DNA of 35,673 bases from Gemmatimonadaceae bacterium (GTDB lineage Bacteria > Gemmatimonadota > Gemmatimonadetes > Gemmatimonadales > Gemmatimonadaceae). Each line of letters starts with the position of its first letter. The first letter of the stretch is position 1. The notes under the pieces were generated by a model. It made no database searches. It saw only the letters and a program-made list of their open reading frames with translations, and was not told where the DNA came from. Below are positions 17,500 through 35,673 of this stretch, piece after piece. The DNA lies in the NCBI GenBank assembly GCA_017881585.1, contig JADGQS010000018.1, forward strand, positions 1 to 35,673, read 5' to 3'. The position numbers were made by a program, and so were the translations under genes.

Positions 17500-17501
17500 C
17501 G

Positions 17502-19838: not shown

Positions 19839-19867
19839 GACTCGATCACTCTTTCCAGTGCGGGGGA

Positions 19868-20233
19868 ATGGTGGCTCCAACGGTGCTCATTTGCGATGAC
19901 GCGATCTTCATGCGAACGATGGTCAGCGACATCCTGCAGCAGGCCGGCTTCGAGGTCGTGGGTGAGGCCGAGACCGGCGCGCAGGCGGTGGAGCGCTACA
20001 AGCAGCTTCGCCCGGACCTCGTCACGATGGACATCGTGATGCCCGACATGGGCGGAATCGACGCGGTGCGTGAAATCACGAAGTTCGATCCGGACGCGAA
20101 AGTGCTCATGTGCAGCGCGATGGGCCAGCAGGCGCTCGTCGTCGAGGCGATCCAGGCGGGAGCCAAGGACTTCGTGGTCAAGCCATTCCAGCCGAGCCGC
20201 GTGCTGGAAGCCGTCCAGCGCGTGCTCGGCTGA
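19868..20233 (+). CDS. cheY: Chemotaxis response regulator CheY
   Basis: The 121-residue single receiver domain has the acidic pair Asp10-Asp11, phospho-acceptor Asp55 in TMDIVMPDM, switch Ser in CSAMGQQ and the conserved Lys in FVVKPFQPSRV. The SAMGQQ and KPFQPSRV segments are of the type seen in Thermotoga and Bacillus CheY rather than enterobacterial CheY, fitting the CheC/CheD partners nearby. A GGGGGA ribosome-binding site stands just upstream of the ATG. The output target is not a flagellar switch seen here; it may act on motility machinery elsewhere or on the MglA module. Confidence 0.92.
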   Translation: MVAPTVLICDDAIFMRTMVSDILQQAGFEVVGEAETGAQAVERYKQLRPDLVTMDIVMPDMGGIDAVREITKFDPDAKVLMCSAMGQQALVVEAIQAGAKDFVVKPFQPSRVLEAVQRVLG

Positions 20234-20276
20234 GCGCGCGACCGTCTCCCCGCCGAGCGTTCCGAGGCCGCAGACG

Positions 20277-22226
20277 ATGAGTCTCGATCCGTCGCGCTAC
20301 GCCGAGCTCTTCCGAACCGAGAGCCGCGAACAGCTGTCGGCGATCAACCGCGCGCTGCTGCTCCTCGAGCAGGGTGGTGATGCCGCGGAGCCGATCAGCG
20401 TGCTGTTCCGCGCCATGCACACGGTGAAGGGCATGAGCGCGACGATGGGGTACCACGCCGTCGCGGAGTTCGCACACGAACTCGAATCCGTGCTCGACCG
20501 CGTGCGCCGGGGCGACCAGCTGCTGGCGCCGGATCTCATGGACGCGCTGTTCGCGTCCGCCGACGCGCTCGAGACCGCCATCGACGAAGGGTCGGAGCAG
20601 GCGGGACAGACGCCCGCGATGGTCGCCGCGCTGCAGCGGCTCCGCGACGTCGCCGGCGGATCGTCGACGAGCGAGTTCCCGGGCGCGCCGACAAAGGAGA
20701 CGGGGGCGCTCGTGGAGGTCGCCGTCGCCGATCCGCTCGACGGCCCGGGCGTGATCGTGCGCGTTCGCCAGGCCGCGGACGCGATGCTCCCCGGCGTGCG
20801 CGCGTTCATGGCGGTACAGCGCGTACGCGCGCTCGGGGAAGTCGCGGCCGTGAACCCATCGCTGGACGCGCTGCAGGCGTCGGCCGTGCCGATATCGTTC
20901 GCCATGCGCGTGGTGACCACGGCGTCCGTCGACGAGATCGAGCACGCCGTGCGGTCCGCGGGCGACGTCGCGTTCGTCGAGGTGGACGTGTCCGGGCGCA
21001 CGCGCCGCGAGTCGCGATCGACGATCGCGGTCGTGGCCGAGGGCGAGGAAGTCACGCGCGCGTCGGCGCGTTCCACGCGGCACGTGCGCATCGACCTCGC
21101 GCGGCTCGACGCGCTGATGAACCTGATCGGCGAGCTCGTGATCACGCGCGGACGGCTGCTGCAGCTCACCGCGTCGAACCCCGATCCCGCGCTCGACGAA
21201 TCCATGCAGATGGCCGCGCGGCTCGTGTCGGACCTGCAGACGGAAATCATGACGATGCGCATGGTGCCCGTGTGGCAGGTGTTCGACCGCTTTCCGCGCC
21301 TCGTCCGCGACTCGGCACGCGCGCTGAACAAGGACGTGACCTTCGTCGTCGAGGGGAAGGAGATCGAGCTCGACCGCTCGCTGCTCGACGAAATCGGCGA
21401 GCCGATCGTGCACCTCCTGCGCAACGCGATCGGGCACGGCATCGAGTCGCCGGCGGAGCGGGCCGCCGCGGGGAAGCCGCGCGCGGGGCGCCTCGTGCTC
21501 AGCGCCGCGCGCGACCGCGCGGCCGTGCTGATCCGCGTGAGCGACGACGGCCGCGGCATCGACCGCCCGCGTGTGCTGGCGCGCGCCCGCGCGCTCGGAC
21601 TCGTGGACGAGGGCACGCGCGAGGTCGACGACGACGCGCTTTTCCGGCTGATCGCGCGGCCCGGACTCTCCACGGCCGAGCAGGTCTCGGATCTCTCGGG
21701 ACGCGGCGTGGGCATCGACGCGGTGCAGGTCAAGACGCGCGCGCTCGGCGGTTCGGTGGAGCTCAAGACCGTCGCCGGCGAGGGCACGACGATCACGATC
21801 CGGCTCCCCATCACGCTCGCGATCGTGCGCGCGCTGCTCGCGAGGTCGGGCACCGAGCGCTATGCGCTGCCGCTCACGCACGTGCGCGAAACGCTCGAGT
21901 ACGATCGCGATGTCGTGCAGCACGTGAAGGGAAAGCCCGTGCTCGTGCTGCGTGACGAGGTGCTGCCGCTGCTCGACCTGCGCGACGTGGTGCGGCAGCG
22001 CGCCGCACCGTTTGCCGGCGGCCCGAACCGCGAGATCGTGGTGATCGAGCGCGGCGACCGGAAGTCGGGGCTCGTGGTGGACGAGCTCATCGGACAGCAG
22101 GACATCGTGGTGAAGCAGTTCGACGCGGCGCGTGACGGCCTCGCGCTGTTCAGCGGTGCGACCATCCTCGCGGACGGCGCGCCGGCATTGATCATGGACG
22201 TGGGCAGTCTCTTCGAGGGGACCTGA
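20277..22226 (+). CDS. cheA: Chemotaxis histidine kinase CheA
   Basis: The 649-residue protein has the P1 Hpt domain with phospho-acceptor His48 in AMHTVKGMSAT, a middle region (about 150-255) in the place of P2, the dimerisation domain from about 275 with RIDLARLDALMNLIGELV, the HATPase domain with HLLRNAIGHGIES (379-391), VSDDGRGID and SGRGVGIDAV, and the C-terminal CheW-like P5 domain. It phosphorylates CheY and CheB. In the N-box the usual Asp (NAIDHG) is Gly386. The ATG at 20277 gives the P1 domain its normal start; longer in-frame extensions overlap cheY. The gene is three bases before cheC. Confidence 0.94.
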   Translation: MSLDPSRYAELFRTESREQLSAINRALLLLEQGGDAAEPISVLFRAMHTVKGMSATMGYHAVAEFAHELESVLDRVRRGDQLLAPDLMDALFASADALETAIDEGSEQAGQTPAMVAALQRLRDVAGGSSTSEFPGAPTKETGALVEVAVADPLDGPGVIVRVRQAADAMLPGVRAFMAVQRVRALGEVAAVNPSLDALQASAVPISFAMRVVTTASVDEIEHAVRSAGDVAFVEVDVSGRTRRESRSTIAVVAEGEEVTRASARSTRHVRIDLARLDALMNLIGELVITRGRLLQLTASNPDPALDESMQMAARLVSDLQTEIMTMRMVPVWQVFDRFPRLVRDSARALNKDVTFVVEGKEIELDRSLLDEIGEPIVHLLRNAIGHGIESPAERAAAGKPRAGRLVLSAARDRAAVLIRVSDDGRGIDRPRVLARARALGLVDEGTREVDDDALFRLIARPGLSTAEQVSDLSGRGVGIDAVQVKTRALGGSVELKTVAGEGTTITIRLPITLAIVRALLARSGTERYALPLTHVRETLEYDRDVVQHVKGKPVLVLRDEVLPLLDLRDVVRQRAAPFAGGPNREIVVIERGDRKSGLVVDELIGQQDIVVKQFDAARDGLALFSGATILADGAPALIMDVGSLFEGT

Positions 22227-22229
22227 GCC

Positions 22230-22844
22230 GTGGACGACATTCGCAAACTCAAGGCGCTTCAGCTCGACGCCCTGCGCGAGGTGGCGAACATCGGCGCGGG
22301 TCACGCCGCGACCGCGCTTTCGCAGATGACGGGCCAGACGATCATGATCAGCGTGCCGCAGATCAACATCGCGCCGCTCGAGGACATTCCGAACCAGGTC
22401 GGCTCCCACGAGGAGCCGGTGGCCGCCGTGCTCATGAAGATCCTCGGCGACCTCACCGGCCTCGCGCTGCTCGTGTTCACGCAGCCCACCGCGCTGCGCG
22501 TGGCGGGCCTCATGATGAAGAAGGAGAACCTGACGGAACTCGACGAGATCGGGCAGTCGGCGCTGCGCGAGGCGGGGAACATCCTGAGTGCCGCGTATCT
22601 CAACGCGCTCAGCGAGTTCATGGGGATGATCCTGCTGCCGTCGCCGCCGTCGCTGGCGATCGACCTGTCCGACGCCGTGATGAGCGCGACGTTCCTCGAG
22701 GTCGCGCAGGGCGCCGACTACGCCTTCTGCGTCGAGACCGAGTTCCAGTTGAAGGAGCTCAACGAGACGTTGCGCGGGTTCTTCTTGCTGCTTCCCGACC
22801 TCGGCAGCCTCACCGCCATCCTCCGCGCGATTCGCGTGGGCTGA
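22230..22844 (+). CDS. cheC: CheY-P phosphatase CheC
   Basis: The 204-residue protein carries both CheC active sites of the D/S-x3-E-x2-N type: Asp13-Glu17-Asn20 in DALREVANIGAGHAATAL, and Ser110-Glu114-Asn117 in SALREAGNILSAAYLNAL. CheC dephosphorylates CheY-P and in Bacillus and Thermotoga binds CheD, linking the output to receptor deamidation. A cheD gene lies further down the same operon, so this feedback loop is likely to operate here. The GTG at 22230 follows the cheA stop by three bases and places the first helix correctly. Confidence 0.93.
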   Translation: MDDIRKLKALQLDALREVANIGAGHAATALSQMTGQTIMISVPQINIAPLEDIPNQVGSHEEPVAAVLMKILGDLTGLALLVFTQPTALRVAGLMMKKENLTELDEIGQSALREAGNILSAAYLNALSEFMGMILLPSPPSLAIDLSDAVMSATFLEVAQGADYAFCVETEFQLKELNETLRGFFLLLPDLGSLTAILRAIRVG

Positions 22845-22852: not shown

Positions 22853-25561
22853 GTGTCCGCTCCCCTCGCCTCCGACCGCGATCGCGACACGCTGAAGTCG
22901 TTCGCGCGGCGCATCGATCCGTCCGACGCGGGCGCGCACAACAACCTGGGCGTCCTCTACTACAACAAGGGGCTGTACGAGGAGGCGGCGGCCGCGTTCA
23001 CGAAGGCGCTCGAGCTCGACCCGAAGATGCAGGTGGCGCAGCGCAACCTCGAGGTCGCGTACTTCAACACGGGCTACTACGACCGTCGCATCGCCGAGCT
23101 GCGCGAGAAGCTGCGCTTCCGCGTGGACGACCGCGACGCGCGCTGGGAGCTCGGCCGCGCGTACGCACTGCTCGGGCAGTCGGACGAGGCCGTCGCCGAG
23201 TTCACGGCGCTGCTGCGGCACCATCCGAACGATCTCGGCGCCGTCGTCCAGCTCGGGCTCGCGGAGAAGGCGAGCGGCAATCTCGGCGCCGCGCAGCACT
23301 GGTTCGAGGACGCGATCCGGCTCGATCCCGCGAGCTCGGTCACGCGCTTCTATCTCGGCGAGGTGCTCTACAACCAGGGACGCATCGAGGAAGCGCTCGA
23401 TGCGCTCAAGCGCGCGATCGAGCTGAATCCCGAGAATCCCGACGCGCAGTTCCTGCTGAGCTTCGTGTACGGCGACATGGGACGGCACGAGGAGGCCGCC
23501 GCCGCGAGCAAGCGCGCGGTGCAGCTCAATCCGACGCTGTCGCGCGCGCAGGCCAACCTCGCGATCGACCAGCGCAACCCGGGCGGGGACGCGGAGCTGC
23601 CGGCGGGCGTTCACGAGCGCCGTGCGCAGCGCATGATGCAGGTGAGCGAAGGCGTGGAACTCGCGCACTACAACCTCGGGCTCGCGTTCCGGCAGAAGGG
23701 CTACTACGCCGAGGCGCAGCGCGAGTACGAGCTTGCGCTCGAACGCGGCGAGGATCGGGCGCTCGTGCTGCAGGCGATGGCCGAGGTGCACCTGCTGCGC
23801 AAGGATCCCGAGGGCGCGATCGCGCTCTACGACAACCTGATCGTCGAGTCGCCGCACAGCCCAAAGCTGTGGAACGAGCGCGGTGTCGCGGTGCACCAGG
23901 GCGGCCGATTCGCCGAAGCGGCCGGGAATTATCGCAGGGCGCTTGAGGCCGATCCGCACTACGCGATCGCGCACAACAATCTCGGCGTGGCGCTCTATCA
24001 CGCGGGCGATCGCGAGCACGCGGTGGACGCGTTCCGCGATGCGCTCGCCACGAACGCCGGCTTCGTGAAGGCGCGGCTCAACCTCGGACTGCTGCTCACG
24101 AAGAGCCGCCGCTTCCAGCTGGCCCTCGAGGCGTACAAACAGGTGCTGGTGACGCAGCCGGAGAACCCGCTCGCATGGAACGGCATCGGGCTGGTGCTCG
24201 GCGAGCTGCGCAAGTTCGAGGACGCGCGCAACGCGTTCGCGCGGGCGATCCAGGCGCGGCCCGATTTCGCCGAGGCGCACTACAACCTGAGCTTCACGCT
24301 CTCGAACCTCGGCGATCACGAGGGTGCGCTGCGCGAGACCAAGCGGGCGCTCGAGCTCGATCCCTATTACGTCGCGCAGAAGTTCTCGCTCGCGATCGAC
24401 CTCGAATACGAGGATCCCGATCTCTCGGTGGTCCCGGATCTCGGCGGCGAGCAGCGCATGAGCGGCGAAGTGGAGAGCTTCACGTTCGACCCGCGCCTGC
24501 TCGAGTCGCTCTTCAGCGAACTCGCACCGCCGCCCGAGCCGGCGCCGCAGCTCGTCGTGGAAGCGGACGCGTTCACGATGGCCGCCGACTACCTCTCGAC
24601 GGGGCTGTACGATCGCGCGATGGCCGAAGCGAGCCGCGCCATTGCACGGGGTGCGGATGCGGCGGAAGGGAATGCGCTGCTCGGCGACATCCTGTGCCGT
24701 CAGGGTGCGTACGGCGACGCGCTCGAGAAGTATCGCGCGGCGCGTGTGGCGAATCCGCATCATCTGCGCGCGCAGCGCGGCGAAGCGCAGACGCTGCTGC
24801 TGCTCGGGCGCGGGCCGGAAGCCCGTGATGTGTCGGAGCAGGTGCTCGCCGCCGCGCCACGGGACGTGGACGCGCTCATGCTGGCCGCGACGTGCCGGTT
24901 CGAGGCCGGCGACCCTTCGGCGGCGCTCGAGGCGCTCGAGGCCGCGCGAGTCCTCGCGCCGCGCCGCGCCGACGTGCTGCGCTGGATCGGCAACATCACG
25001 CGCTCGCTGGGCGACGTCGACGGCGCGATACGCGCGTATCGCGACGCGCTCGCGCTCGACGCCGATTTTGCCGCGGTGCGATTCGATCTCGCGCGGCTGC
25101 TCATGCAGCGCGAACTGTGGTCCGAGGCGGAGCGGGAACTCGTGGCCGCGCTCGACGCGGTGCCGACGTACGCCGAGGCGACGCTCGAGCTCGCCACGCT
25201 GCGCCGGGTCACGGGGCAGCAGCAGGAGGCCGTGAGCCTGCTCGTCGACCTGCTGCAGCGCGACTCGTACAACTTCGACGGCCACATCTCGCTCGGCGAG
25301 ACGCTCATCGAACTGAATCGCCCCGCCGACGCGGCGACCGCGTTCCGGCGCGTGCTCGCGTTCGATCCCGACCATGCGGGCGCGACGTTCTATGACGGCG
25401 TGATCCTCGCCGGCCAGAAGCGCTACCGCGATGCCATCGAACGCTGGCACCGTGTGGTGGAGCTCGAGCCCGCCGGCGAGTACGCCCGGCGCGCGCGGCG
25501 TGAAATGCGCACGGCGGAAGACCTGCTTACGGTGTTCGGCAGCCGGCTCGGAGGTCACTGA
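22853..25561 (+). CDS. Large tetratricopeptide-repeat protein, function unknown
   Basis: The 902-residue protein consists almost wholly of TPR units (for example AHNNLGVLYYNKGLYEEAAA, ALDALKRAIELNPENPDAQF and AHYNLSFTLSNLGDHEGALR). They form two superhelices of about residues 15-515 and 575-895. The break between them (about 520-570) is acidic and Pro-rich and contains VESFTFDPRLLESLFSEL. There is no signal peptide or transmembrane segment, so it is cytoplasmic. TPR arrays are scaffolds, and position between cheC and the DUF4388/Roadblock/MglA genes suggests it assembles the complex or links it to its target. The GTG start at 22853 is eight bases after cheC. Confidence 0.88.
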   Translation: MSAPLASDRDRDTLKSFARRIDPSDAGAHNNLGVLYYNKGLYEEAAAAFTKALELDPKMQVAQRNLEVAYFNTGYYDRRIAELREKLRFRVDDRDARWELGRAYALLGQSDEAVAEFTALLRHHPNDLGAVVQLGLAEKASGNLGAAQHWFEDAIRLDPASSVTRFYLGEVLYNQGRIEEALDALKRAIELNPENPDAQFLLSFVYGDMGRHEEAAAASKRAVQLNPTLSRAQANLAIDQRNPGGDAELPAGVHERRAQRMMQVSEGVELAHYNLGLAFRQKGYYAEAQREYELALERGEDRALVLQAMAEVHLLRKDPEGAIALYDNLIVESPHSPKLWNERGVAVHQGGRFAEAAGNYRRALEADPHYAIAHNNLGVALYHAGDREHAVDAFRDALATNAGFVKARLNLGLLLTKSRRFQLALEAYKQVLVTQPENPLAWNGIGLVLGELRKFEDARNAFARAIQARPDFAEAHYNLSFTLSNLGDHEGALRETKRALELDPYYVAQKFSLAIDLEYEDPDLSVVPDLGGEQRMSGEVESFTFDPRLLESLFSELAPPPEPAPQLVVEADAFTMAADYLSTGLYDRAMAEASRAIARGADAAEGNALLGDILCRQGAYGDALEKYRAARVANPHHLRAQRGEAQTLLLLGRGPEARDVSEQVLAAAPRDVDALMLAATCRFEAGDPSAALEALEAARVLAPRRADVLRWIGNITRSLGDVDGAIRAYRDALALDADFAAVRFDLARLLMQRELWSEAERELVAALDAVPTYAEATLELATLRRVTGQQQEAVSLLVDLLQRDSYNFDGHISLGETLIELNRPADAATAFRRVLAFDPDHAGATFYDGVILAGQKRYRDAIERWHRVVELEPAGEYARRARREMRTAEDLLTVFGSRLGGH

Positions 25562-25563: not shown

Positions 25564-26667
25564 GTGGCGATCGAAGGACCCCTTCGCGAACTCGGCATCC
25601 ACGACGTCTTCCAGCTGCTCGACCTGAGCCGCAAGACGGGAACACTGGCGGTCACCTCGGAACTGCGCGACAACGAGGGGACGGTGCACTTCCAGAACGG
25701 CCGCGTCGTGGCCGCAAAGATCAAGAGCAATCCGCACCGCATCGGCGACCTGCTCATGCGCGCCGGCCGCGTGACGGCCGCGCAGGTGGCGGAGGCGAGC
25801 GCCGCGCAGGTGGAGCGCGGCGACCGCCGCCGCCTGGGCGAGATCCTGCTCGACATGGGCGCGATCACGCAGAAGGAGCTCGAGCGGCAGATCCGGATCC
25901 AGATCGAGGCGGTCGTCTTCGAGCTCCTCTCGTGGCGAGAAGGATTCTTCCGCTTCGAGGAAGGACCGATGCAGGGCGAGCCGATGGTGCAGATCGGCAC
26001 GGAGGCGCTGCTGATGGAGGGCGCCCGCCGTATCGATGAATGGTCGCGCATTTCCGATCGCGTGCCGAGCCTGCTCGCGATTCCGCGGCTCACGTCGCTG
26101 CAGGACGACAGCCACGCGCCGATGCTCGACCTGCTGCCGAGCGAATGGGAGGTCCTGACGATGATCGACGGCGCGCTGGACCTGCGTGCGATCGCTGCGA
26201 GGCTCGCGCGCACCGAGTTCGACACGGCCAAGGTCGTCTATGGACTCGTCAGCACCGGCGTGGTCGAGCTCACGGTTCCCGCGTCGGTGGCGGAACGGGT
26301 CGCGGCGCGCGCGTCCACGCCGGCGAGTCCGATGCGCGCGGTGGCCGATGTCCCGACTCCCGTGATCGGGGCGCCCACCGTGACGTCTCCTGCCGCGGTG
26401 CCGGCGGCTCCCGGGGCGCTGCGCGCGCCGACGATCACGGACGACCTGCCGCCGCTCACCGCGAAGCACGAACCGCCGCCCATGGCCGACGGCATCGACG
26501 ATCTCGAGCGCGGATTCCAGTACCTGCTGCGCGGCGACTTCGACAGCGCCGTGGTGTCGTGGGCCTTGTGGCTGCATTCGCACTCGAACGACGCGATGGC
26601 GGAAAAGGTTCGCGCCGGTCTCGAGGCCGCCGCGCGCCTGCGCGGGCTCGTGGAGGCGCGCTACTGA
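25564..26667 (+). CDS. PATAN/DUF4388-domain protein with winged-helix-like region
   Basis: Residues 1-130 match the DUF4388 (PATAN) pattern: IHDVFQLLDLSRKTGTLAVT, then GTVHFQNGRVVAAKI, an alpha-helical insertion resembling the N-terminal domain of type II/IV secretion ATPases (RIGDLLMRAGRVTAAQVAEA and RRLGEILLDMGAITQKELE), then FFRFEEGPM. A winged-helix-like segment follows (about 195-245, SEWEVLTMIDGALDLRAIAA). After a Pro/Ala/Thr-rich linker (about 250-300) comes a single TPR-like hairpin. PATAN domains are associated with response regulators and MglA-type GTPases. It is paralogous to the protein at 30854-32473. The GTG start is two bases after the TPR gene; the stop overlaps the next ATG. 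Confidence 0.82.
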   Translation: MAIEGPLRELGIHDVFQLLDLSRKTGTLAVTSELRDNEGTVHFQNGRVVAAKIKSNPHRIGDLLMRAGRVTAAQVAEASAAQVERGDRRRLGEILLDMGAITQKELERQIRIQIEAVVFELLSWREGFFRFEEGPMQGEPMVQIGTEALLMEGARRIDEWSRISDRVPSLLAIPRLTSLQDDSHAPMLDLLPSEWEVLTMIDGALDLRAIAARLARTEFDTAKVVYGLVSTGVVELTVPASVAERVAARASTPASPMRAVADVPTPVIGAPTVTSPAAVPAAPGALRAPTITDDLPPLTAKHEPPPMADGIDDLERGFQYLLRGDFDSAVVSWALWLHSHSNDAMAEKVRAGLEAAARLRGLVEARY

Positions 26668-27479
26668 TGAGCGACGACATCCGCGCCCTCAGCGAGACGC
26701 TCGCGGCCGATCCGTCGAGCGTGGTGTTCGTGCAGCTCGGCGAGGCCTTGCGCCGCTCCGGACAGCTGGAACTCGCCTGGCGCGTCGCCTCGCGCGGTCT
26801 CGAGCGGCACGCGCAGCGCGCCGACGCGCACGATCTGGTCGCGCGCATCGCCATCGATCGCGGCGATGTTCCGCGCGCGCGGGCCGAATGGGAGTCGGTG
26901 CTCACGCTGTCGCCGGGACACGGCGGCGCGCAGAAGGGACTCGGCTTCCTCTGTTTCCAGCAGGGCGACCTCGACGAGGCGGCGCGGTATCTCGGCGCCG
27001 CGCTCGCGAGCGATCCGCTCGACGAGTCGCTCGCGGCGGCGCTCGACACGGTTTACGCGTCGCATCCGGACCGGCGGCCGCTCGAAGAGGGGCCGACCGC
27101 GCCCGCGCCGGTCGTCGATGCGCGCACGCTGTTCCACGAAGTGCTCGGCGACCCGTCGCAGACCGCGATCCTGCTTGACGCGGATGGCTACGTTGTCGCG
27201 GGCCAGTATCTCACGGCGGACGGACGCGATCTCGGCGCCGACATCGGCGCGCAGCTCTCGGGGGTGAGCGACGAGGCGAATCGCGCCATGCGCCATCTCG
27301 GCCTCGGCCGCTGGCGCCAGATCGTCTTCGAGTCGGAGACCGCGAGCGTGGCGATGGCGCCGAGCGGCGGTGGCGTGCTGCTCGTCGCGGCGCCGCGGTC
27401 CGTCCCGCTCGGATATGTCCGGCGCCTGTTGGAACGGTCGCTCGAGCGCGCACGCCGCTGGATGGGACGGCGCGCATGA
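26667..27479 (+). CDS. TPR-Roadblock/LC7 fusion protein
   Basis: Residues 1-120 contain about three TPR-like hairpins (FVQLGEALRRSGQLELAWRV and AQKGLGFLCFQQGDLDEAAR). After a Pro-rich linker, residues 145-270 look like a Roadblock/LC7 domain, with TAILLDADGYVVAGQYLT for the central strand-turn-strand and VLLVAAPRSVPLGYVRRLLE for the C-terminal helix. Roadblock proteins such as MglB act as GTPase-activating partners of MglA. The ATG at 26667 overlaps the upstream stop. It is the first of three consecutive LC7-type proteins, and the only one fused to TPRs, which may bring the GTPase partner to a scaffold. Confidence 0.75.
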   Translation: MSDDIRALSETLAADPSSVVFVQLGEALRRSGQLELAWRVASRGLERHAQRADAHDLVARIAIDRGDVPRARAEWESVLTLSPGHGGAQKGLGFLCFQQGDLDEAARYLGAALASDPLDESLAAALDTVYASHPDRRPLEEGPTAPAPVVDARTLFHEVLGDPSQTAILLDADGYVVAGQYLTADGRDLGADIGAQLSGVSDEANRAMRHLGLGRWRQIVFESETASVAMAPSGGGVLLVAAPRSVPLGYVRRLLERSLERARRWMGRRA

Positions 27480-27486: not shown

Positions 27487-27834
27487 ATGAGCAGCCCGTT
27501 CACCGCGCTCCTCGCATCGCTCATCCGCCACCGCGGCGTCACCGGCTGCATGGTGGTGGGCGAGGCCGACGGCATGATCGTCGACTCGAGCCTGCAGATC
27601 GGCGTGAATGGCGAGGCGTTCGCGGCACTCACCGCGTCGATGTATCGCAAAGCGAGACGGGCGGCGGCGGCGGCGGGATTCGGCCCGACCGGATTCTTCG
27701 AGCTCGACGCCGACGGCGGCCGCATGTGCGCGGCGGGGAGGAACGATCTCGTCATTGTCGTCCTGGCCGAGCCGAGGGTGAACGTCGGGCTGCTCCGCGT
27801 CGAGATGCTGAAGGCGCTGGAGGCGTTCGCATGA
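27487..27834 (+). CDS. Roadblock/LC7-domain protein (second)
   Basis: The 115-residue protein is a single small domain with TALLASLIRHRGVTGCMVVG, EADGMIVDSSLQIG, a central helix and VIVVLAEPRVNVGLLRVEML, the order of elements in the Roadblock/LC7 fold. The ATG at 27487 follows the previous gene by seven bases and the stop overlaps the next start. By family it should dimerise and contact the MglA-type GTPase encoded 520 bases further on. It is shorter than Myxococcus MglB (159), and I cannot identify which of the three LC7 proteins is the true MglB equivalent. Confidence 0.75.
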   Translation: MSSPFTALLASLIRHRGVTGCMVVGEADGMIVDSSLQIGVNGEAFAALTASMYRKARRAAAAAGFGPTGFFELDADGGRMCAAGRNDLVIVVLAEPRVNVGLLRVEMLKALEAFA

Positions 27835-28301
27835 GGCTGTCCGTCGCCGAAGACTGGGTCGAGGCGCCCCTCAAGCAGTTCGTGGATGAGGCGCGCGTGC
27901 AGCTGGCCGTGCTGTTGAATCGGAGCGGGCAGGTGCTCGGCCAGTACGGGTTCGCGAGCTCCGTGGACGTGATGACCGCGTGCGCGCTCGCGGCGGCGAC
28001 GACGGCGTCTTCGGCGGAGCTCGGCCGGCTGGTGGACGGCAAGCCGTTCGCCGGACTGCACTACGCCGGGAATGTGCGGCAGATCTTCCTCGGGCAGATA
28101 TCGATGCGAGCCGGCTCGCTGATCCTGCTGGCGGTGTTCGACGACGAGAGTTCGCTCGGCCTGGTGCAGCTGTTCTTCGCGGAACTCTGCGCGAGCCTCG
28201 CGGCTGTCGTGCCGGCGGATGCACCGGCGGCGCCCGCGCTGGCGGAGGATTTCGAACGCGAGCTGCACCGCAATCTCGCCGCGATGTTCGGGCGTTCATG
28301 A
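27831..28301 (+). CDS. Roadblock/LC7-domain protein (third, MglB-like candidate)
   Basis: The 156-residue product contains VQLAVLLNRSGQVLGQYGFA, then DVMTACALAAATTASSAELG and IFLGQISMRAGSLILLAVFD, which follow the Roadblock/LC7 pattern used by MglB. A C-terminal extension ends AEDFERELHRNLAAMFGRS, a possible amphipathic helix. Its length and position directly before the MglA-type GTPase make it the best candidate for the MglB-like GTPase-activating protein. The start overlaps the upstream LC7 gene by four bases. A 52-base gap with a CATCCCGGATC-type repeat separates it from mglA. Confidence 0.78.
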   Translation: MRLSVAEDWVEAPLKQFVDEARVQLAVLLNRSGQVLGQYGFASSVDVMTACALAAATTASSAELGRLVDGKPFAGLHYAGNVRQIFLGQISMRAGSLILLAVFDDESSLGLVQLFFAELCASLAAVVPADAPAAPALAEDFERELHRNLAAMFGRS

Positions 28302-28353: not shown

Positions 28354-28953
28354 GTGTCACTAGTCAACTACGCAGCCCGCGAAATCACGTGCAAGATCGT
28401 TTACTACGGCCCGGGACGGTCCGGGAAGACGACGAACCTGCATTACATTTACGGCCAGGTGCCGGGTGACCGGAAAGGGCAGATGGTCTCGCTGGCAACG
28501 CAGACGGACCGCACGCTGTTCTTCGATTTTCTTCCGCTCGACCTCGGGATCATCTCGGGGTTCACGACGCGATTCCAGCTCTATACGGTGCCGGGACAGG
28601 TGTACTACCAGACCACACGACGGCTCGTGCTGCAGGGCGCCGACGGCGTCGTGTTCGTCGCGGACAGCCAAGCCCGGCAGCTCGACGAAAACATCGAGTC
28701 GATGCAGGACCTCCACGCGAATCTCGCGGAACACGGCGTCGACGCGCGCACCGTGCCCCTCGTGATCCAGTACAACAAGCAGGACCTGCCCGCCGACCTC
28801 ATCCTCAGTGTGCCCGAACTCGAGGAGCAACTCAACTTCCGCGGGGTGCCGTCATTCGCGGCCGACGCGCTGCACGGCCCGGGCGTGTTCGAGACGCTGC
28901 GCGCGGTGAGCGAGCAGGTGCTCCGCAAGTTGAGCGCGGGCGGAGGGGGCTGA
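28354..28953 (+). CDS. mglA: MglA-type small Ras-like GTPase
   Basis: The 199-residue protein has a P-loop GPGRSGKTTN (Lys25), the switch region TQTDRTLFFDFLPLDLG, the family-specific TVPGQVYYQTTRRLVLQGAD (with TVPG in place of the usual DxxG) and the guanine-binding NKQD in IQYNKQDLPAD. It is close in pattern to Myxococcus MglA (starts NYAAREITCKIVYYGPG), which sets cell polarity for gliding and type IV pili and is regulated by the Roadblock protein MglB. The GTG at 28354 gives the family N-terminus; upstream in-frame ATG codons would add 45 unrelated residues. Three LC7 genes precede it and a DnaA-like ATPase gene follows after two bases. Confidence 0.93.
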   Translation: MSLVNYAAREITCKIVYYGPGRSGKTTNLHYIYGQVPGDRKGQMVSLATQTDRTLFFDFLPLDLGIISGFTTRFQLYTVPGQVYYQTTRRLVLQGADGVVFVADSQARQLDENIESMQDLHANLAEHGVDARTVPLVIQYNKQDLPADLILSVPELEEQLNFRGVPSFAADALHGPGVFETLRAVSEQVLRKLSAGGGG

Positions 28954-28955: not shown

Positions 28956-30854
28956 GTGCAGCTCGATCCGCGGCTCCGGTTCGACAGCCTCGTGGTGGGC
29001 GCGGGGAACCGCCTCGCGGTGGCGGCCGCGCGAGCCGTGGCCGAGTCGCCGGGCGCGGTCTACAACCCGTTGTTCATCTATGGCGGCACCGGGCTCGGCA
29101 AGACGCACCTGCTCTGCGCCGTGGGACACTTGGCGGCCGCTTTGCAGCCGCAGCTCGAGATCGAGTACCTCTCGCTCGACGAGTTCGTCGAGCAGCTGCA
29201 TGCCTCGGTCTCCGCCGGGCAGATGGACGCGTTCTCGCGCCGCTACGAGCGCGTGGGACTCCTGCTCATCGACGACGTGCAGTTCCTCACCGGGCGACGC
29301 GAGACGCAGGCCGAGCTCCTGCGGCTGTTCGAGCGCATGCAGGCCGCGGGCGGCCAGGTGGTGCTCACGAGCGACCGCCCGCCGGCCGAGATCCCGGACG
29401 TCGACGAGCGGCTGATCAGCCGGCTCTCGGGTGGGCTCATCGCGGACGTCACCGCGCCGGACTACGAGACGCGCGTCGCGATCCTCCGCGCGAACTGCGA
29501 GGAGCGCCACCTCGAGTTCACGAACGGCGTGCTCGAGGAGCTCGCGCGGTTCAACTTCAACAACGTGCGCGCGCTGCAGGGCGCGCTCAACCGGCTCGTC
29601 GTGGCCGAGGCGGTCAGCGCGGACGAGGAACCGTCCGCGAAGACGGTGCAAAAGCCGGCGCCGAAGGAGCGTCCCACCGGCGAGTTCGAGAGCTTCCTCT
29701 CCGAAGTCACGACGGTCGTGCAGCAGCAGGTCGAGTCGTGGCAGGCGAGGCTGCGCGAGGCGATCGCGTACTGGAACGGCGAGGGATACCGCACCGCCGT
29801 GCTCGCGCGCGCTCTCACGCTGACCAAGGCCCCCGACGTCGCGGGTCTGCTCTCGACGTTCACGGCGGCCGTGGAACACCTGCGCGACCTCGAGCGCGCC
29901 GCCGCGGACGTGGATCTCGCGCTCGGCAGCGATCCCGTGTTCCGCGATCCCGAGCGGATGGCGGCGGCGGAGGACCTCGTCGAGCGCGCGCTGGCGGGCG
30001 AGACGCCGCCGGGCGGGCCGAGTCCCGCGTTCACGCGCGACGCGTTCGAGGTGGGAACGTCGAACCAGCTCGCCGTCCATGCCGCCGACGCGGTCATCGC
30101 GTCGCCCGGGGTGAAGTACAATCCCTTGCTGATCCACGGCGCGAGCGGCGTGGGAAAGACGCACCTGCTGCACGCCATCGGCAACGCACTCGTGCTGGCG
30201 CGCGGCTCGCGGCTCGTCGTCGCGTGCGTGCACGCCCAGCAGTTCATCGACGAGCTGATCACGTCGATCCAGGGCGGGACGATCGAACGCTGGCGCGCCC
30301 GGTATCGCTCCGTGGACGCGCTCCTGATCGACGACGTGCACTTCATCGCGGACAAGGAGCGCACGCAGGACGAGCTCTTCCTGCTGTTCAACGAGATCGT
30401 CAACGCGGGGAAGCAGGTCGTGCTCACGAGCGACCAGCCTCCCTCCGTGATTCCCGATCTGGAGGCGCGGCTGCGCTCGCGGTTCGAGGGCGGGCTCGTC
30501 GTTCCCATCCAGGCGCCCGACCGCGCCCTGCGCGAGAAACTCTTCGCGCGATTCCTCGCCGCGGCGGGCCGGGAGTCCGACGCGCACCTGCTCGCGCTGC
30601 TCGGCCAGCAGCCGGTGCAGAGCGTGCGCGAGATCATCGGCGTCGTGAACCGGCTGGGCGCGGCGGCGCAGGCGGCAGGCGTGCCGCTCGACGCCAAGCT
30701 CGTGCGCCGTGAACTCGGCGCGGTCACGCCCTACGCCGGCGTATCCGTCATCGCGCAGGCGAACGACGGGCGCGACCCCGCGTTCATGGACGCCGAGAAG
30801 ATCGTGTGGGACTGGCCTGAAGTCGGCGCGCGCGTGATCGAGGAGTTCCGCTGA
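28956..30854 (+). CDS. Tandem DnaA-like AAA+ ATPase without a DNA-binding domain
   Basis: The 632-residue protein holds two DnaA domain-III modules. Module 1 (about 8-225) has RFDSLVVGAGNRLAV, Walker A GGTGLGKTHLL (Lys49), Walker B LLLIDDVQFL (Asp106-Asp107), sensor-1 VVLTSDRPP and sensor-2 NNVRALQGALNRL. Module 2 (about 368-585) has AFEVGTSNQLAVHAA, GASGVGKTHLL (Lys401), LLIDDVHFIADKERTQDELF (Asp459-Asp460), VVLTSDQPPSVIPDLEARLR and VREIIGVVNRL. A helical linker of about 140 residues joins them. There is no domain I and no domain IV helix-turn-helix signature, so it should not act as a replication initiator. The GTG start has a GGAGGGGG ribosome-binding site; the stop overlaps the next ATG. 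Function unknown; co-translated with MglA and DUF4388 proteins. Confidence 0.85.
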   Translation: MQLDPRLRFDSLVVGAGNRLAVAAARAVAESPGAVYNPLFIYGGTGLGKTHLLCAVGHLAAALQPQLEIEYLSLDEFVEQLHASVSAGQMDAFSRRYERVGLLLIDDVQFLTGRRETQAELLRLFERMQAAGGQVVLTSDRPPAEIPDVDERLISRLSGGLIADVTAPDYETRVAILRANCEERHLEFTNGVLEELARFNFNNVRALQGALNRLVVAEAVSADEEPSAKTVQKPAPKERPTGEFESFLSEVTTVVQQQVESWQARLREAIAYWNGEGYRTAVLARALTLTKAPDVAGLLSTFTAAVEHLRDLERAAADVDLALGSDPVFRDPERMAAAEDLVERALAGETPPGGPSPAFTRDAFEVGTSNQLAVHAADAVIASPGVKYNPLLIHGASGVGKTHLLHAIGNALVLARGSRLVVACVHAQQFIDELITSIQGGTIERWRARYRSVDALLIDDVHFIADKERTQDELFLLFNEIVNAGKQVVLTSDQPPSVIPDLEARLRSRFEGGLVVPIQAPDRALREKLFARFLAAAGRESDAHLLALLGQQPVQSVREIIGVVNRLGAAAQAAGVPLDAKLVRRELGAVTPYAGVSVIAQANDGRDPAFMDAEKIVWDWPEVGARVIEEFR

Positions 30855-32473
30855 TGGCCATCAAGGGCAGCTTGAAAGAGGCGAGCCTCCCCGACGTGCT
30901 CCAGCTCCTCGCGATGGGGAAGAAGACCGGATGCCTGTCGGTCACGCACCGGAACAACTTCGGCTCCATCTATTTCGACAAGGGTCGCATTTGCTACGCG
31001 GCGATCGTGAACCGCCGCGACCGGCTCGGTGACATCCTCCTCAAAAGCGGCGCGATCACGCCCGCGCAGCTGCAGGAGGCGATCGAGTCGCAGGAAAAGC
31101 AGCGCGACAAGCGGCTCGGCGAGATTCTCGTGGGGCTCGGCATCATCTCGCGCGACGACCTGCACAAGCAGATCCGGCTGCAGATCGAGGAGGCCGTGTA
31201 TTTCCTGTTCACGTGGACGCAGGGCACGTTCAACTTCGAGGCGGACATCCGACCCGAAGAGCAGGACTTCCTGGTGCTGATCAACCCCGAGTCGCTCCTG
31301 CTCGAAGGGGCGCGGCGCGTGGACGAGTGGAGCCTCATCGAGAAGAAGATCCCGTCGTTCGATATCGTATTCGACATCGACCTCAGGCGCCTCGACGAGA
31401 GCGCCGCGAAGCTCACGCAGGAACAGCAGGTCCTGCTGCCGCTGATCGACGGCCGGCGCGACGTGTTCGCGATCATCGAGGACTCGGGGCTGGTGGAGTT
31501 CCAGGTCGGCAAGGCGCTGTACGGTCTCTCCACCGCGGGCTTCCTGCATCGCGTGGGCAAGTCGCGCGCGCCGGACGTGATCGCGCCCGACGCGCGCGTG
31601 GAAGAGCACCGCAACCTCGGCATGGCGTTCTACAAGACCGGCATGCTCGACGAAGCCGAGCGCGAATTCCGGCGCGTCGTGGAGCTGCGCGCGAGCGACA
31701 TGCACGCGCGGTTCTTCCTCGGGCTCGTGCACCTGCGGCTCGCGCGCTGGGACGACGCGGTCTCCGACTTCGAGTACGCCGCGCACCAGCGCGGCGCGGC
31801 TCCGGCCGTCCTGCACAATCTCGCGTTCGCGTTCGAGCGGAAGGGAGAGCCGGCCAAGGCGCGTGAAACATTGCGCGAGGCGGTGAAGCGCGGCGGCGAA
31901 CACGATGCGCGCGTGCACACGTCGCTCGGCGTGCTCGCGCTGCGCGAGGGCGACCTCGCGGCCGCGGAGGCGAGCTTCCTCGCCGCGCGTCCGCTGTTCG
32001 ACGGGCGCCCGCCGTCGCCCGCGTGGTTCCACTATGCGGCGCTCTGCTTCGCGCTCGCGGGCAAGGCGGACGAGGCGATCGCCTTGCTGCAGGAGGGCGT
32101 CGAGGCGTATCCGCACGCCGCGGTACTCCACAACAACCTCTCGGTGGCGTTCGAGCGCGTCGGACGCCATCAGGAGGCGCTCGCGGCGGCGGAACGCGGC
32201 GTCTCCGAGGATGCGGGAATCGCGCAACTGCACAAGAACATCGGCGACGCGCATTATCGCGTGGCACTCTTCGACGAGGCCTACGACGCGTACCAGCGCG
32301 CGGTGAAGTTCAACGACACGCTCGGACCCGACGTGTGGCTCAAGCTCGGCAACATCCGCCTCAAGCGGAACGAGCGCGACGACGCCATCAAGTGCTGGGA
32401 GCATGCGCTGCAGCTCGACCCGGCCAACCAGACCGCGCGCAAGAACATCGAGGCGGCCCGGGCGGCCACGTGA
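30854..32473 (+). CDS. PATAN/DUF4388 protein with C-terminal TPR array
   Basis: Residues 1-130 repeat the plan of the upstream DUF4388 protein: MAIKGSLKEASLPDVLQLL, KKTGCLSVT, GSIYFDKGRICYAAI, RLGDILLKSGAITPAQLQEA and RLGEILVGLGIISRDDLHK, then QGTFNFEADIRP. A winged-helix-like segment (about 185-235, EQQVLLPLIDGRRDVFAIIE) follows, then about seven TPRs from residue 250 to the end (for example HRNLGMAFYKTGMLDEAERE and LHNNLSVAFERVGRHQEALA). It is cytoplasmic, with no signal or membrane segment. PATAN plus TPR suggests an adaptor between a GTPase or receiver and a larger complex. The ATG overlaps the DnaA-like stop and its own stop overlaps cheR. Confidence 0.88.
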   Translation: MAIKGSLKEASLPDVLQLLAMGKKTGCLSVTHRNNFGSIYFDKGRICYAAIVNRRDRLGDILLKSGAITPAQLQEAIESQEKQRDKRLGEILVGLGIISRDDLHKQIRLQIEEAVYFLFTWTQGTFNFEADIRPEEQDFLVLINPESLLLEGARRVDEWSLIEKKIPSFDIVFDIDLRRLDESAAKLTQEQQVLLPLIDGRRDVFAIIEDSGLVEFQVGKALYGLSTAGFLHRVGKSRAPDVIAPDARVEEHRNLGMAFYKTGMLDEAEREFRRVVELRASDMHARFFLGLVHLRLARWDDAVSDFEYAAHQRGAAPAVLHNLAFAFERKGEPAKARETLREAVKRGGEHDARVHTSLGVLALREGDLAAAEASFLAARPLFDGRPPSPAWFHYAALCFALAGKADEAIALLQEGVEAYPHAAVLHNNLSVAFERVGRHQEALAAAERGVSEDAGIAQLHKNIGDAHYRVALFDEAYDAYQRAVKFNDTLGPDVWLKLGNIRLKRNERDDAIKCWEHALQLDPANQTARKNIEAARAAT

Positions 32474-33306
32474 ACGACACGGCGGACGACGGCGCCTTCG
32501 TCGCGCTGACGTCGAAGATCGCCCGCGATCGCGGATTCGGCGCGGCGAACTACAAGGACACGTGCATGCGCCGCCGCATCGCCGTGCGCATGCGGGCCCG
32601 CGGCGCGGCGGACTTCGCGGCGTACAGCCGGCTGCTCGACAGCGATCCCGCCGAGTACGAGTGGCTGATCGCGGTGCTCACGATCAACGTCACCAAGCTA
32701 TTCCGGAATGCGGAGGCGTGGGACGCGGTGGCGCACTCCGTCCTTCCCGCGCTCTGGTCGCTGCCGTCGCCGCGCCTGAATTGCTGGGTCGCTGGCTGCG
32801 CGTCCGGAGAGGAGGCATATACGCTGGCGGCGCTCTGGCTGCAGCACGCGTCTGCACACACCCGGCCGGGCGAGCCTGGCGGCGCGAGCCGCGTGCGCGT
32901 GACCGCGAGCGACATCGATCGCGAGAGTCTCGCGGCGGCCGAGGCCGGCACGTACGCCGACGATTCGTTCGCCGAGGCGCCAGCCGGCGTGCGCGAGCGC
33001 TGGTTCGCTCCCGCGGAGAAAGGGGGCCGGTGGACGGCGGGTCCGGAGCTGCGCGCGATCATCCGCTTCGAGCGCCGCGACCTGCTGCTGGATCCCGCGC
33101 CGGCCGTCGCGATGCACCTGATCACCTGCCGCAACGTGATCATCTACTTCGACCGCGAGTCGCAGGAGGCGCTCATGCAGCGCTTCCACGATTCGCTCGC
33201 GCCGGGCGGGTATCTCGTGCTCGGCAAGGTCGAGACGCTGCTCGGCCCGTCGCGTGCGCTGTTCGACGCCGTGGACTCGCGGCAGCGCATCTTCCGGCGC
33301 CCGTGA
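32470..33306 (+). CDS. cheR: Chemotaxis protein methyltransferase CheR
   Basis: The 278-residue protein has the CheR N-terminal helical domain (NYKDTCMRRRIAVRMRARG), the LTINVTKLFRNAEAWD segment, the SAM-binding motif WVAGCASGEEAYTLA and the later ASDIDRESLAAA, with CRNVIIYFDRESQEALM. It methylates receptor glutamates using S-adenosylmethionine. The GTG at 32470 overlaps the previous stop as GTGA and gives the correct N-terminal domain. The presence of CheR and CheB requires receptors, which are not in this window. Confidence 0.94.
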   Translation: MNDTADDGAFVALTSKIARDRGFGAANYKDTCMRRRIAVRMRARGAADFAAYSRLLDSDPAEYEWLIAVLTINVTKLFRNAEAWDAVAHSVLPALWSLPSPRLNCWVAGCASGEEAYTLAALWLQHASAHTRPGEPGGASRVRVTASDIDRESLAAAEAGTYADDSFAEAPAGVRERWFAPAEKGGRWTAGPELRAIIRFERRDLLLDPAPAVAMHLITCRNVIIYFDRESQEALMQRFHDSLAPGGYLVLGKVETLLGPSRALFDAVDSRQRIFRRP

Positions 33307-33779
33307 AGGAGATTCGCGTGCGCATCGCTCATCACGCCGTGGCCAAGGGGCGCTCCCGTCTCGTGACGATCGGCCTGGGCTCGTGCGTGGCGATCGCGAT
33401 CCACGACCGCGCGGCGAAGGTCGGCGGGCTTGCACACGTGCTGCTGCCGGACGCGGCGCTCGGCCGCGGCGTCGAGAATCGCGCGCGCTATGCGTCGACC
33501 GCCGTTCCGCTGCTGCTCGACGAGATGAAGGCCATCGGGGCGACCGGTCCGTTCGCCGCCTCGCTCGCGGGCGGCGCGGCGCTGTTCGGACCGCTGCTCG
33601 CGTTCGGCGGTTCCGTCGGAGCGCGCAACATCGAGGCGGCGCGCACGGCGCTCGCCGCCGCGCGCGTTCCGGTGGTGGCGGAGGATGTCGGCGGCGAAAG
33701 CGGCCGGACGGTGTCGTTCGACGTGTCCACCGGCGAGGTGCACGTGCGGTCGGTGCGGGGGGGCGAGCATGTCTTATAA
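33303..33779 (+). CDS. cheD: Chemoreceptor glutamine deamidase CheD
   Basis: The 158-residue protein has the catalytic cysteine Cys28 in GLGSCVAIAIHD and His45 in GGLAHVLLP, the Cys-His pair of the CheD deamidase, and the later GGAALFGPLLAFG...IGARN-type segment (here VGARNIEAAR). CheD deamidates receptor glutamines and binds CheC, whose gene lies upstream in the same operon. The GTG at 33303 overlaps the cheR stop; a GTG at 33318 would remove five residues and is also acceptable. The end overlaps the start of cheB by 11 bases. Confidence 0.93.
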   Translation: MKEIRVRIAHHAVAKGRSRLVTIGLGSCVAIAIHDRAAKVGGLAHVLLPDAALGRGVENRARYASTAVPLLLDEMKAIGATGPFAASLAGGAALFGPLLAFGGSVGARNIEAARTALAAARVPVVAEDVGGESGRTVSFDVSTGEVHVRSVRGGEHVL

Positions 33780-34902
33780 AGAGTCCCGCATCCCGGATCG
33801 CAGTGACAAAGAGTCCCGTATCCCGGATCGCAGCGCACGGCGCACGGTCCTCGTCGTCGACGACAGCGCGCTCGTGCGCCAGGTGGTGTGCGACCTGATC
33901 GCCGGCTTCGACGAGTTCGAGGTGATCGGCACCGCGCACGACGGCCTCGACGCGCTCACCAAGGTGCATGCGCTCGACCCCGACATCGTCACGCTCGACA
34001 TCGAGATGCCGGTGATCGACGGCATCGCCGCGCTCGGCTACATCATGAGCGAGGCGCCGCGCGCGGTCGTGATGCTCAGCGGCGTCGAGTCGCGCGGCGC
34101 GGTGGACCTCACGCTGCGCGCGCTCGAACTCGGTGCGGTGGACTTCGTGCGCAAGCCGGCCGGCACGTTTGCCGATGCGATGCCCGCGATGGCGAGCCGG
34201 CTCCTCGAGGCGCTGCGCGCGGCGGCCGTCGTCAACCTGCGCGGAGTTCCCGCGCTCGCCCGCGTCGCGCTCGAGACCGCCCGGGCGCGAATTTCGGCGC
34301 GAGGCGCGCGCGCGGCCGTCGCGATCGCCGCGTCGACGGGCGGTCCGCGCGCGCTCGTCGAGGTGGTCCCGGCGCTGACGCGGGAGCTCGACGCCGCGGT
34401 GCTCATCGCGCAGCACATGCCGAGGGGATTCACGGCCGGTCTCGCGCGGCGGCTCGACGCGATGTCGTCGCTCGAAGTGTCGGAGGCGACGCACGGCGAG
34501 GCGGTGCTCACCAACCACGTGTACATCGCGCCGGGCGGACAGCACATGACGGTGTCGTCGGACGGCTGGCAGGCCCGAATCGTGCTCGACGAATCGGAGC
34601 CCGTGTGGGGGGTGCGGCCCGCCGCAGACCCGCTCTTCGTGTCCGCAGCGAAACACTTCGGCGCCGCGTGCGTCGGCGTCGTGCTCACCGGAATGGGCCG
34701 CGACGGGAGTGCCGGGCTGGCGGCGATCCGCGCGGCCGGCGGCGGAGCCGTGGTGCAGGACCGCGCGACCGCGACGATTTACGGAATGCCGCAGTCTGCG
34801 CTCGAGCACGCCGGGGCGGACGTCGTCGCTCCGCTCGGATCCGTCGCGGCGGCGGTCCTGGAACTCATCGGCTCGCGGCGCGCGATCTGGAGCACCCGAT
34901 GA
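33769..34902 (+). CDS. cheB: Chemotaxis methylesterase/response regulator CheB
   Basis: An N-terminal receiver domain (about 25-140; Asp31-Asp32, phospho-acceptor Asp77 in LDIEMPVIDG) is joined to the methylesterase domain with its catalytic triad: Ser189 in AASTGGPRAL, His216 in AQHMPRGF and Asp312 in TGMGRDGSAG. It removes receptor methyl groups when phosphorylated by CheA. The first 23 residues are unusual: two copies of KESRIPDRS, encoded by a 30-bp tandem DNA repeat (33778-33837). CheB proteins normally begin almost directly with the receiver strand. No good later ATG precedes the receiver; the ATG at 33769 overlaps the cheD end. Confidence 0.95.
   Translation: MSYKESRIPDRSDKESRIPDRSARRTVLVVDDSALVRQVVCDLIAGFDEFEVIGTAHDGLDALTKVHALDPDIVTLDIEMPVIDGIAALGYIMSEAPRAVVMLSGVESRGAVDLTLRALELGAVDFVRKPAGTFADAMPAMASRLLEALRAAAVVNLRGVPALARVALETARARISARGARAAVAIAASTGGPRALVEVVPALTRELDAAVLIAQHMPRGFTAGLARRLDAMSSLEVSEATHGEAVLTNHVYIAPGGQHMTVSSDGWQARIVLDESEPVWGVRPAADPLFVSAAKHFGAACVGVVLTGMGRDGSAGLAAIRAAGGGAVVQDRATATIYGMPQSALEHAGADVVAPLGSVAAAVLELIGSRRAIWSTR
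33778..33837 (+). repeat. 30-bp tandem direct repeat at the start of cheB
   Basis: Two 30-bp units (33778-33807 and 33808-33837) share the core AAAGAGTCCCG(C/T)ATCCCGG then ATCGCAG and differ at one internal base and in their last four bases. Both are in the cheB frame and encode KESRIPDRSD and KESRIPDRSA. The core matches words in the gap before mglA, so this may be a dispersed intergenic repeat absorbed into a gene. Confidence 0.9.
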
Positions 34903-35399
34903 ACGCGCCCGTCGCGCCTGCGGCGCTCGTGGCGGAGCACACGCTGCACATCGTGGTGCGCGTAGGCGACGAGCGCTTCGCGTTTCCGGTGTCGCACGTC
35001 GAGGAAGCGCTCGATGCGCCGGTGGTCGAGTGGGTCCCCGTGGCACCCGCCGGCATGCTCGGACAGGTGCCGCATCGCGGGCGCATGGTGGGCGCCTGGG
35101 ATGCGGGGTGGGCGTTCCGGCTCGCCAGGCCGGCGGGCGCCGGCGCGGCGCTCGTGCTGCGCGACGGACCGCGGCGCGTCGCCCTCGTGGTGGACGACGT
35201 GACGGAGATGGCCCGCATCGAGCCCGCCGACGTGCGCCCGGTGCCCGGCGGCGCCGACCTGGACGGCGTCCTCGCCGGTGTCTGTTTCTCCTCTCAGGGC
35301 GGCAGTGCGCTCGTGAACGTGGTGCGGGTGGACGCGCTCGCGGCGCTGTGTTTGTTGGTGTCGCCGCGTGGAACCTTCGTCGACGGGATGACACGATGA
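34899..35399 (+). CDS. CheW-like protein (second cheW)
   Basis: The 166-residue protein has the CheW-like order: LHIVVRVGDERFAFPVSHVE, then the central AGMLGQVPHRGRMVGAWDA (in the place of the INLRG..IPV segment), AALVLRDGPRRVALVVDDVT and a late ALVNVVRVDAL. The conserved Arg-Gly turn is weaker than in classical CheW, so it is a divergent member. The ATG overlaps the cheB stop by four bases. It could couple CheA to a different receptor set, or act as an accessory array component. Confidence 0.8.
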   Translation: MNAPVAPAALVAEHTLHIVVRVGDERFAFPVSHVEEALDAPVVEWVPVAPAGMLGQVPHRGRMVGAWDAGWAFRLARPAGAGAALVLRDGPRRVALVVDDVTEMARIEPADVRPVPGGADLDGVLAGVCFSSQGGSALVNVVRVDALAALCLLVSPRGTFVDGMTR

Positions 35400-35673
35400 C
35401 CGGCACATCCGGATCGAGTGCAGCAAGGGCGGCGAGCGCTGCCGGTGCCGCGAGCGCCGCCAGCGGCGCCCGCGGCACCGGCGGCGCCAAGGGCGCCGAG
35501 CGAACGCAGCTCGTGACGTTCCGCGTGGGTGAAGACCTCTTCGCCGCCGACATCTTCTCGGTCGAGCGCGTCCTCCGGTTCACGGCGCCGCGCCCGATTC
35601 CCAACGTGCCCGCGTGGCTCGAGGGCGTGATCGACTACGGCGGGCGCGTGGTGCCGGTGATCGACCTGCGCGC
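35396..35673 (+). CDS. CheW-like protein (third cheW, partial, cut by right edge)
   Basis: The frame opens with the ATG at 35396, overlapping the previous stop, and remains open to the window end (92 codons). After an Ala/Gly/Ser-rich tail of about 35 residues comes TQLVTFRVGEDLFAADIFSV, then ERVLRF, and WLEGVIDYGGRVVPVIDLR, which is the well-conserved CheW core. It looks more classical than the upstream cheW. The low-complexity N-terminal tail is encoded by a DNA segment that forms a strong hairpin (35441-35482). Confidence 0.88.
   Translation, partial: MTGTSGSSAARAASAAGAASAASGARGTGGAKGAERTQLVTFRVGEDLFAADIFSVERVLRFTAPRPIPNVPAWLEGVIDYGGRVVPVIDLR
35441..35482 (+). repeat. Near-perfect 42-bp palindrome in the 5' coding region of the third cheW
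   Basis: A 12-bp arm GCCGGTGCCGCG (35441-35452) pairs with CGCGGCACCGGC (35471-35482). An inner 7-bp arm GCGCCGC (35454-35460) pairs with GCGGCGC (35463-35469), with one A-C mismatch between them and only CA at the tip. As RNA it would be a very stable hairpin 45-90 bases into the reading frame. Part of this follows from the Ala/Gly-rich composition, but 19 of 20 paired positions is more than expected. Confidence 0.75.

Follow-up and report, generated by a model that had tools for sequence, protein, structure and literature searches.

A tandem DnaA domain III protein of Gemmatimonadetes with a candidate role in polarity and pilus control

We describe a protein that carries two DnaA domain III modules in one chain and is encoded within an operon of MglA, Roadblock/LC7 and chemosensory genes in a Gemmatimonadaceae bacterium (GenBank assembly GCA_017881585.1; the window, that is, the whole stretch of DNA analysed, comprises 35,673 nucleotides of contig JADGQS010000018.1). 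Our data confirm the tandem arrangement and its place in this operon, and partly support the interpretation first put on it, that of an ATPase of DnaA descent perhaps working with MglA. The protein belongs to a conserved, non-replicative family of Gemmatimonadetes that puts the DnaA AAA+ module to a new use, within an apparently known kind of control system. We suggest that it is a DnaA-derived, ATP-switched AAA+ adaptor of a polarity and pilus control system, which docks on a neighbouring protein with DUF4388 (which we take to be the PATAN domain) and TPRs and tunes type IVa pili, a reading to which we assign a probability of about 0.5. Our literature search found no description of such a tandem-DnaA protein of a motility operon, and the novelty originally claimed for this layout in a motility or polarity setting stands to that extent.

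If the reading is correct, a DnaA-derived ATPase has a role outside replication, the engine of the initiator apparently having been turned to a different task. The natural series of two, one and zero modules shows which parts carry function. How MglA, chemosensory and c-di-GMP signals are routed to the pilus motor becomes directly testable in a little-studied phylum, given the constant DUF4388-TPR partner, the C modules that are pseudo-ATPases and the mini forms.

Two DnaA domain III modules and a conserved tail

The 632-residue ORF (Table 1) begins 2 nt downstream of the MglA stop codon and ends in a stop codon that overlaps the next gene's start. Pfam Bac_DnaA matches it twice (352 bits total), NCBIfam TIGR00362 (DnaA) scores 502 bits across two stretches, and AlphaFold2 predicts for the whole chain a pair of AAA+ folds, both capped by a helical lid (mean pLDDT 87, pTM 0.53). 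The top domain-level PDB match found by Foldseek is domain III of Bacillus subtilis DnaA (8bv3; TM 0.90 over the target, rmsd 1.4 Å). Walker A (K49, K401) and Walker B (D106-D107, D459-D460) residues sit where the original prediction had placed them and are conserved among 23 relatives, some positions nearly so. The box VII arginines R152 and R156 of the N module and R505 and R509 of the C module are present, as is a sensor-2 arginine in both modules; the AAA+ set of Walker A, Walker B, sensors and arginine finger is complete in both modules of this protein and, family-wide, in the N module. Comparison of the gene with near relatives gave a dN/dS of 0.07-0.13, so it is real and under purifying selection.

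Table 1. Positions of features in the window and of the mini-form loci
Feature	Position	Strand	Remarks
DivIVA, ileS, dksA, lspA, rluD	12779-19402		upstream block; loci L190-L203
CheW, CheY, CheA, CheC	19404..22844	+	
Long TPR protein	22853..25561	+	902 aa; SgmX-like in type only
DUF4388 protein	25564..26667	+	second PATAN-type protein of the operon
TPR + Roadblock protein	26664..27479	+	
Roadblock/LC7 protein a	27487..27834	+	22.6 bits, slightly below Pfam cut-off of 23
LC7-like protein b	27831..28301	+	assigned by operon position and gene conservation; overlapping ORF without Pfam match
MglA small GTPase	28354..28953	+	top PDB match M. xanthus MglA 5ymx, E 2.4e-74
DnaA-linker-DnaA-tail protein	28956..30854	+	GTG start, 632 aa
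N-terminal DnaA domain III (AAA+ and lid)	28962..29621	+	aa 3-222; every catalytic motif retained
Helical linker domain	29670..30026	+	aa 239-357
C-terminal DnaA domain III	30027..30716	+	aa 358-587; intact in the 632-aa protein of the window
Conserved C-terminal tail	30780..30851	+	aa 609-632; includes EKIVWDWPEVGARVIEEFR
DUF4388 (PATAN)-TPR protein	30854..32473	+	constant neighbour of the tail protein
MshEN-type tandem RLG...Q insertion in DUF4388	31055..31216	+	aa 68-121; predicted c-di-GMP site
CheR, CheD, CheB, CheW, CheW	32473..35673	+	CheR by position and operon order; last CheW cut at window end
Mini form, locus L238	8928-9148		
Mini form, locus L239	~8912-8694	-	
Mini form, loci L240, L243, L245, L287-L291			with L238 and L239, n=10

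The joining segment, described at the outset as helical, is helical throughout in the AlphaFold2 model (residues 242-349). This linker domain has no Pfam match, and its fold has no PDB match at Foldseek E ≤ 0.001 (best VIA Z 4.5). The tail is modelled as disordered, with a terminal helix at its end. The conserved tail had not been noted originally, nor had the MshEN-type insertion of the downstream gene.

The protein was predicted to be of DnaA descent, without DnaA domains I and IV and with a non-replicative role. Consistent with this, PF08299 (domain IV) is absent from 23 family members even at E 0.1, and there is no DnaA_N match for domain I, the ORF starting straight at domain III. Within its own genome, a 240-contig assembly, the sole clear PF08299 match was to the true DnaA, a normal protein with domains III and IV encoded on contig C1. 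The PF08299 searches and the AlphaFold2 model rule out a domain IV concealed in the C-terminus, and a simple recent copy of the organism's own DnaA is likewise ruled out, the modules forming a clade of their own. Thus, the protein resembles DnaA in the sequence of both modules, predicted fold, box VII finger and lid, but differs in being tandem, in lacking domains I and IV, in falling into another clade than the organism's DnaA and in its motility-type neighbourhood. Two further identities were rejected: PADLOC matches, which would indicate a defence system, were short P-loop stretches only, and phage matches were below 60% identity and resembled ordinary DnaA stretches.

Loss and decay of modules across the family

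The linker profile matched 177 of the 298 genomes of our phylum sample and 0 of 38 genomes of other phyla, the latter being a non-exhaustive sample without a positive control in the set. Among the matches listed, the named full-length relatives were from Gemmatimonadaceae, Gemmatimonas sp. and Gemmatimonadales; families and genera are otherwise given by anonymous labels (f1-f10 and g numbers, respectively). Loci L248, L286, L292 and L196 were set aside for contig edges, deletions or locus rearrangement. The fetched loci have the DnaA-linker-DnaA-tail architecture in f1-f5, and DnaA-linker-tail in f6, f9 and one f1 genus. L246 encodes DnaA-tail without the linker, and L171 and L252 a linker with a weak tail, no DnaA module being found. 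At the end of this series is a mini form of ~65-80 aa, found in genera g5, g7 and g37 in the slot directly before the DUF4388-TPR gene, with zero DnaA modules and only the linker-start helix motif and the tail (for L239, VKSKRGAAGGGGNGSTRGEFDSFLSELAGAVAERVQALNPKTASQADPVFFDETKTIVEWPERSAYVIEELR). The ten mini-form loci are a single clade (support 0.999). Proteins this small are easy to miss in automatic annotation. In the genomes G021 and G023, no second DnaA-type match was found elsewhere in the genome.

The linker start, its first ~25 residues (EFxxFLSxVxxxVxxxVExW), is retained in the mini form, and the tail (EKxVWxWPxxxxRxIEExR) is the most widely retained element of the family, with its tryptophan in 54/54 tails recovered. 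A DNA-pattern search for the tail, with one mismatch allowed, found it in no other protein of the genome. In f9, DGH-type extensions follow, such that the tail is not always the extreme C-terminus. Because the mini form has only these two ends, linker start and tail are the core that the family conserves, and the DnaA modules are removable. The two DnaA-type modules of the original proposal are present here, but they are not the core of the family, since one clade makes do with linker start and tail.

In a FastTree phylogeny of 177 DnaA modules, those of the tandem family form one clade (0.988), apart from the clade of Gemmatimonadetes replicative DnaA (0.978). N modules and single forms group together (0.994) and C modules separately (1.0), from which it follows that the duplication is old and that single forms lost their C module; single-module forms as the ancestral state are not favoured, given their nesting within the N-module clade. 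Walker, finger and sensor residues of the N module are near-invariant across the family, and both ATP sites are intact in most of the order. The C module of the distant families f4/f5 retains the Walker A lysine in 1/13 and the second Walker B acid (D) in 1/13, has lost the sensor-2 part of the lid, and keeps the arginine finger in 13/13; in f6/f9, the C module is wholly absent. The residues lost and kept suggest that the f4/f5 C module is a pseudo-ATPase with a finger that may complete the ATP site of another module. The ISM region, formed by the helices from Walker A to Walker B, is of unchanged length in the double form and shortened in f9. The picture of two like modules with intact motifs is accurate for the window but not for those families in which the C module has decayed around its finger.

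The DUF4388-TPR partner and the pilus motor

The DUF4388-TPR gene lies directly downstream in 44 of the 45 mapped loci, the 45th being the rearranged L196. MglA is upstream in 32/45; the 13 loci without adjoining MglA are 12 from f5 plus one from f1. In f5 and a few other genomes, the protein and DUF4388-TPR form a pair next to rluD (downstream of it in f5), without MglA, LC7 or CheA, and reduced gene contexts occur outside f5 too (L239, L245, L246, L290). Because its pairing is nearly constant at 44/45 compared with 32/45 for MglA, DUF4388-TPR rather than MglA is the likely partner. The MglA/Che neighbourhood of the original prediction therefore holds for most loci but not for 13/45, and MglA as a constant partner has to be given up.

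Several other features of the neighbourhood were seen. The upstream block from DivIVA to rluD is retained even where Che and MglA genes are absent, and the pole-marking DivIVA may or may not be related. A second MglA paralogue is encoded elsewhere in G000 and most of the genomes examined, and most f5 genomes have a single MglA, which was not seen at the locus. In L286 (G005) and L292 (G161), natural deletions have taken out the MglA and DnaA-type genes, so that DUF4388-TPR is joined in its middle to the CheA or CheY region.

DUF4388-TPR contains two 24-residue motifs (RLGxx...LxxxLxxQ) of the MshEN type (defined in PMC5013675) separated by a spacer of 6 residues. The positions that contact c-di-GMP in such motifs are conserved in most of 57 sequences, and NCBIfam NF053729 (c-di-GMP_motif) scores 54.7 bits against a cut-off of 38. 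On this sequence evidence, DUF4388-TPR is a predicted c-di-GMP receptor of the MshEN type. It shares the two motifs with the MshEN receptors already described (PMC5013675) but has a spacer of 6 instead of 5, and the predicted binding site is located within DUF4388, not on a PilB/MshE ATPase. A similar RxG...Q region is present in the second DUF4388 gene of the operon. The 59-residue insertion is missing in 10/10 mini-form loci and retained in the remaining readable loci; as the mini loci fall in a single clade, the pattern amounts to one joint loss and is no more than suggestive. Strict coupling of insertion and DnaA modules is rejected: L171 and L252, in which no DnaA module was found, and L246, without the linker, keep the insertion.

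Full PilB (TIGR02538 above cut-off) was present in 31/32 genomes with the system and 6/21 without (Fisher p 1.2e-7), an indicative value only, since the genomes are hand-picked and related and the p value ignores shared ancestry. The comparison covers genomes in which the partner gene was checked, which leaves out G013. Genomes that lack both the system and a PilB above cut-off include G078, G079, G070, G092, G082, G084, G003, G009 and G014. The six with full PilB and no system speak against a pilus role.

A switchable adaptor and the alternatives

In the model we favour, the linker-start helix and the tryptophan-rich tail would tie the protein to its DUF4388(PATAN)-MshEN-TPR neighbour, with the DnaA modules as a nucleotide-dependent regulator inserted between these conserved ends. 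ATP would be held in the N module, in a site completed by the arginine finger of the C module or of a neighbouring N module, and would switch the protein between assembled and unassembled forms. The assembly state could then set how PATAN-TPR acts on the type IVa extension motor PilB, and MglA-GTP, the Che array and c-di-GMP may be integrated where such inputs exist. Since AAA+ modules are absent from one clade, the ATP switch is presumably not essential everywhere, and the f9 extensions beyond the tail weaken a strict C-terminal-peptide model of TPR docking. A more specific and rather speculative version is that a small adaptor peptide captured the ATP-driven assembly engine of DnaA as a plug-in cassette and sets polar pilus activity via its c-di-GMP-sensing PATAN-TPR partner, in some families gated by a finger-only pseudo-ATPase half.

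It is also conceivable, though unlikely, that the tandem AAA+ is not a switchable scaffold but a remodeller or loader like IstB, DnaC or DnaI, which loads or unloads MglA, the LC7 proteins or PilB. That most of the order has both ATP sites intact would fit such an activity. Both modules are matched by IstB and DnaI-type profiles, which is to be expected in this AAA+ clade, and Pfam IstB_IS21 reaches 77.6 bits (cut-off 24.1). The NCBIfam IstB, DnaI and DnaC profiles stay under their cut-offs, and DnaA profiles outscore the loader profiles by far. Loss of the C-module ATP site in f4/f5, of the C module in f6/f9 and of all modules in the mini clade argues against a loader, as does the f5 gene, which has neither MglA nor LC7 beside it.

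We consider it improbable that the protein is a replication regulator of the Hda type, whose arginine fingers would stimulate ATP hydrolysis by the true DnaA and so let motility or polarity cues act on the cell cycle. Hda is of the same AAA+ family and likewise a DnaA domain III without the DNA-binding domain IV, and the finger is the best-retained element of the decaying C module. Hda has a single module, a role in replication and an N-terminal sliding-clamp-binding motif; by inspection of the aligned family N-termini, no such clamp motif is seen here, the chain starting at domain III, and linker and tail are additional. The Hda profile (TIGR03420) gives 155 bits, below its cut-off of 194.8. 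Moreover, the gene adjoins DUF4388-TPR and not replication genes in the mapped loci, and one clade retains the tail without any AAA+ module. Judged on the features tested, the 632-aa protein is neither DnaA nor Hda/HdaA.

Still less probable is that the AAA+ modules are relics drifting on a small adaptor, with ATP use gone and the linker start and tail doing the real work. Modules are lost or degenerate in L171, L172, L246, L252 and the mini clade, but near the window both are under strong purifying selection (dN/dS 0.04-0.13), and the near-invariance of the N-module motifs also speaks for continued use. A role on DNA, in which the modules would bind it via domain III, as DnaA does in its filaments, to control the operon or chromosome, is very improbable: binding of single-stranded DNA by domain III is known for DnaA (3r8f) and the double form has ISM helices of full length, but there is no domain IV anywhere in the ORF, the ISM region is shortened in f9, and the pairing with a scaffold-type protein is conserved.

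The adaptor reading places the protein close to two known systems. PATAN genes are found near mglA (PMC4316618) and co-occur with sgmX in Myxococcus (PMC11580455). The M. xanthus MglA/SgmX/FrzS/SopA network (PMC11580455), which acts on type IVa pili via PilB, shares with our operon MglA, Roadblock proteins and a long TPR protein, the 902-aa protein of the window being compared with SgmX by type only, not by homology. No DnaA-type ATPase is described for that network, and the Gemmatimonadetes version is one operon together with Che genes. In cyanobacteria, PATAN regulators interact with PilB (PMC9090330, PMC7690835), and PATAN-REC proteins such as PixE control type IV pili; the partner described here has the same domain but differs in being fused to TPRs, in its MshEN-type insertion and in its pairing with a DnaA-derived protein.
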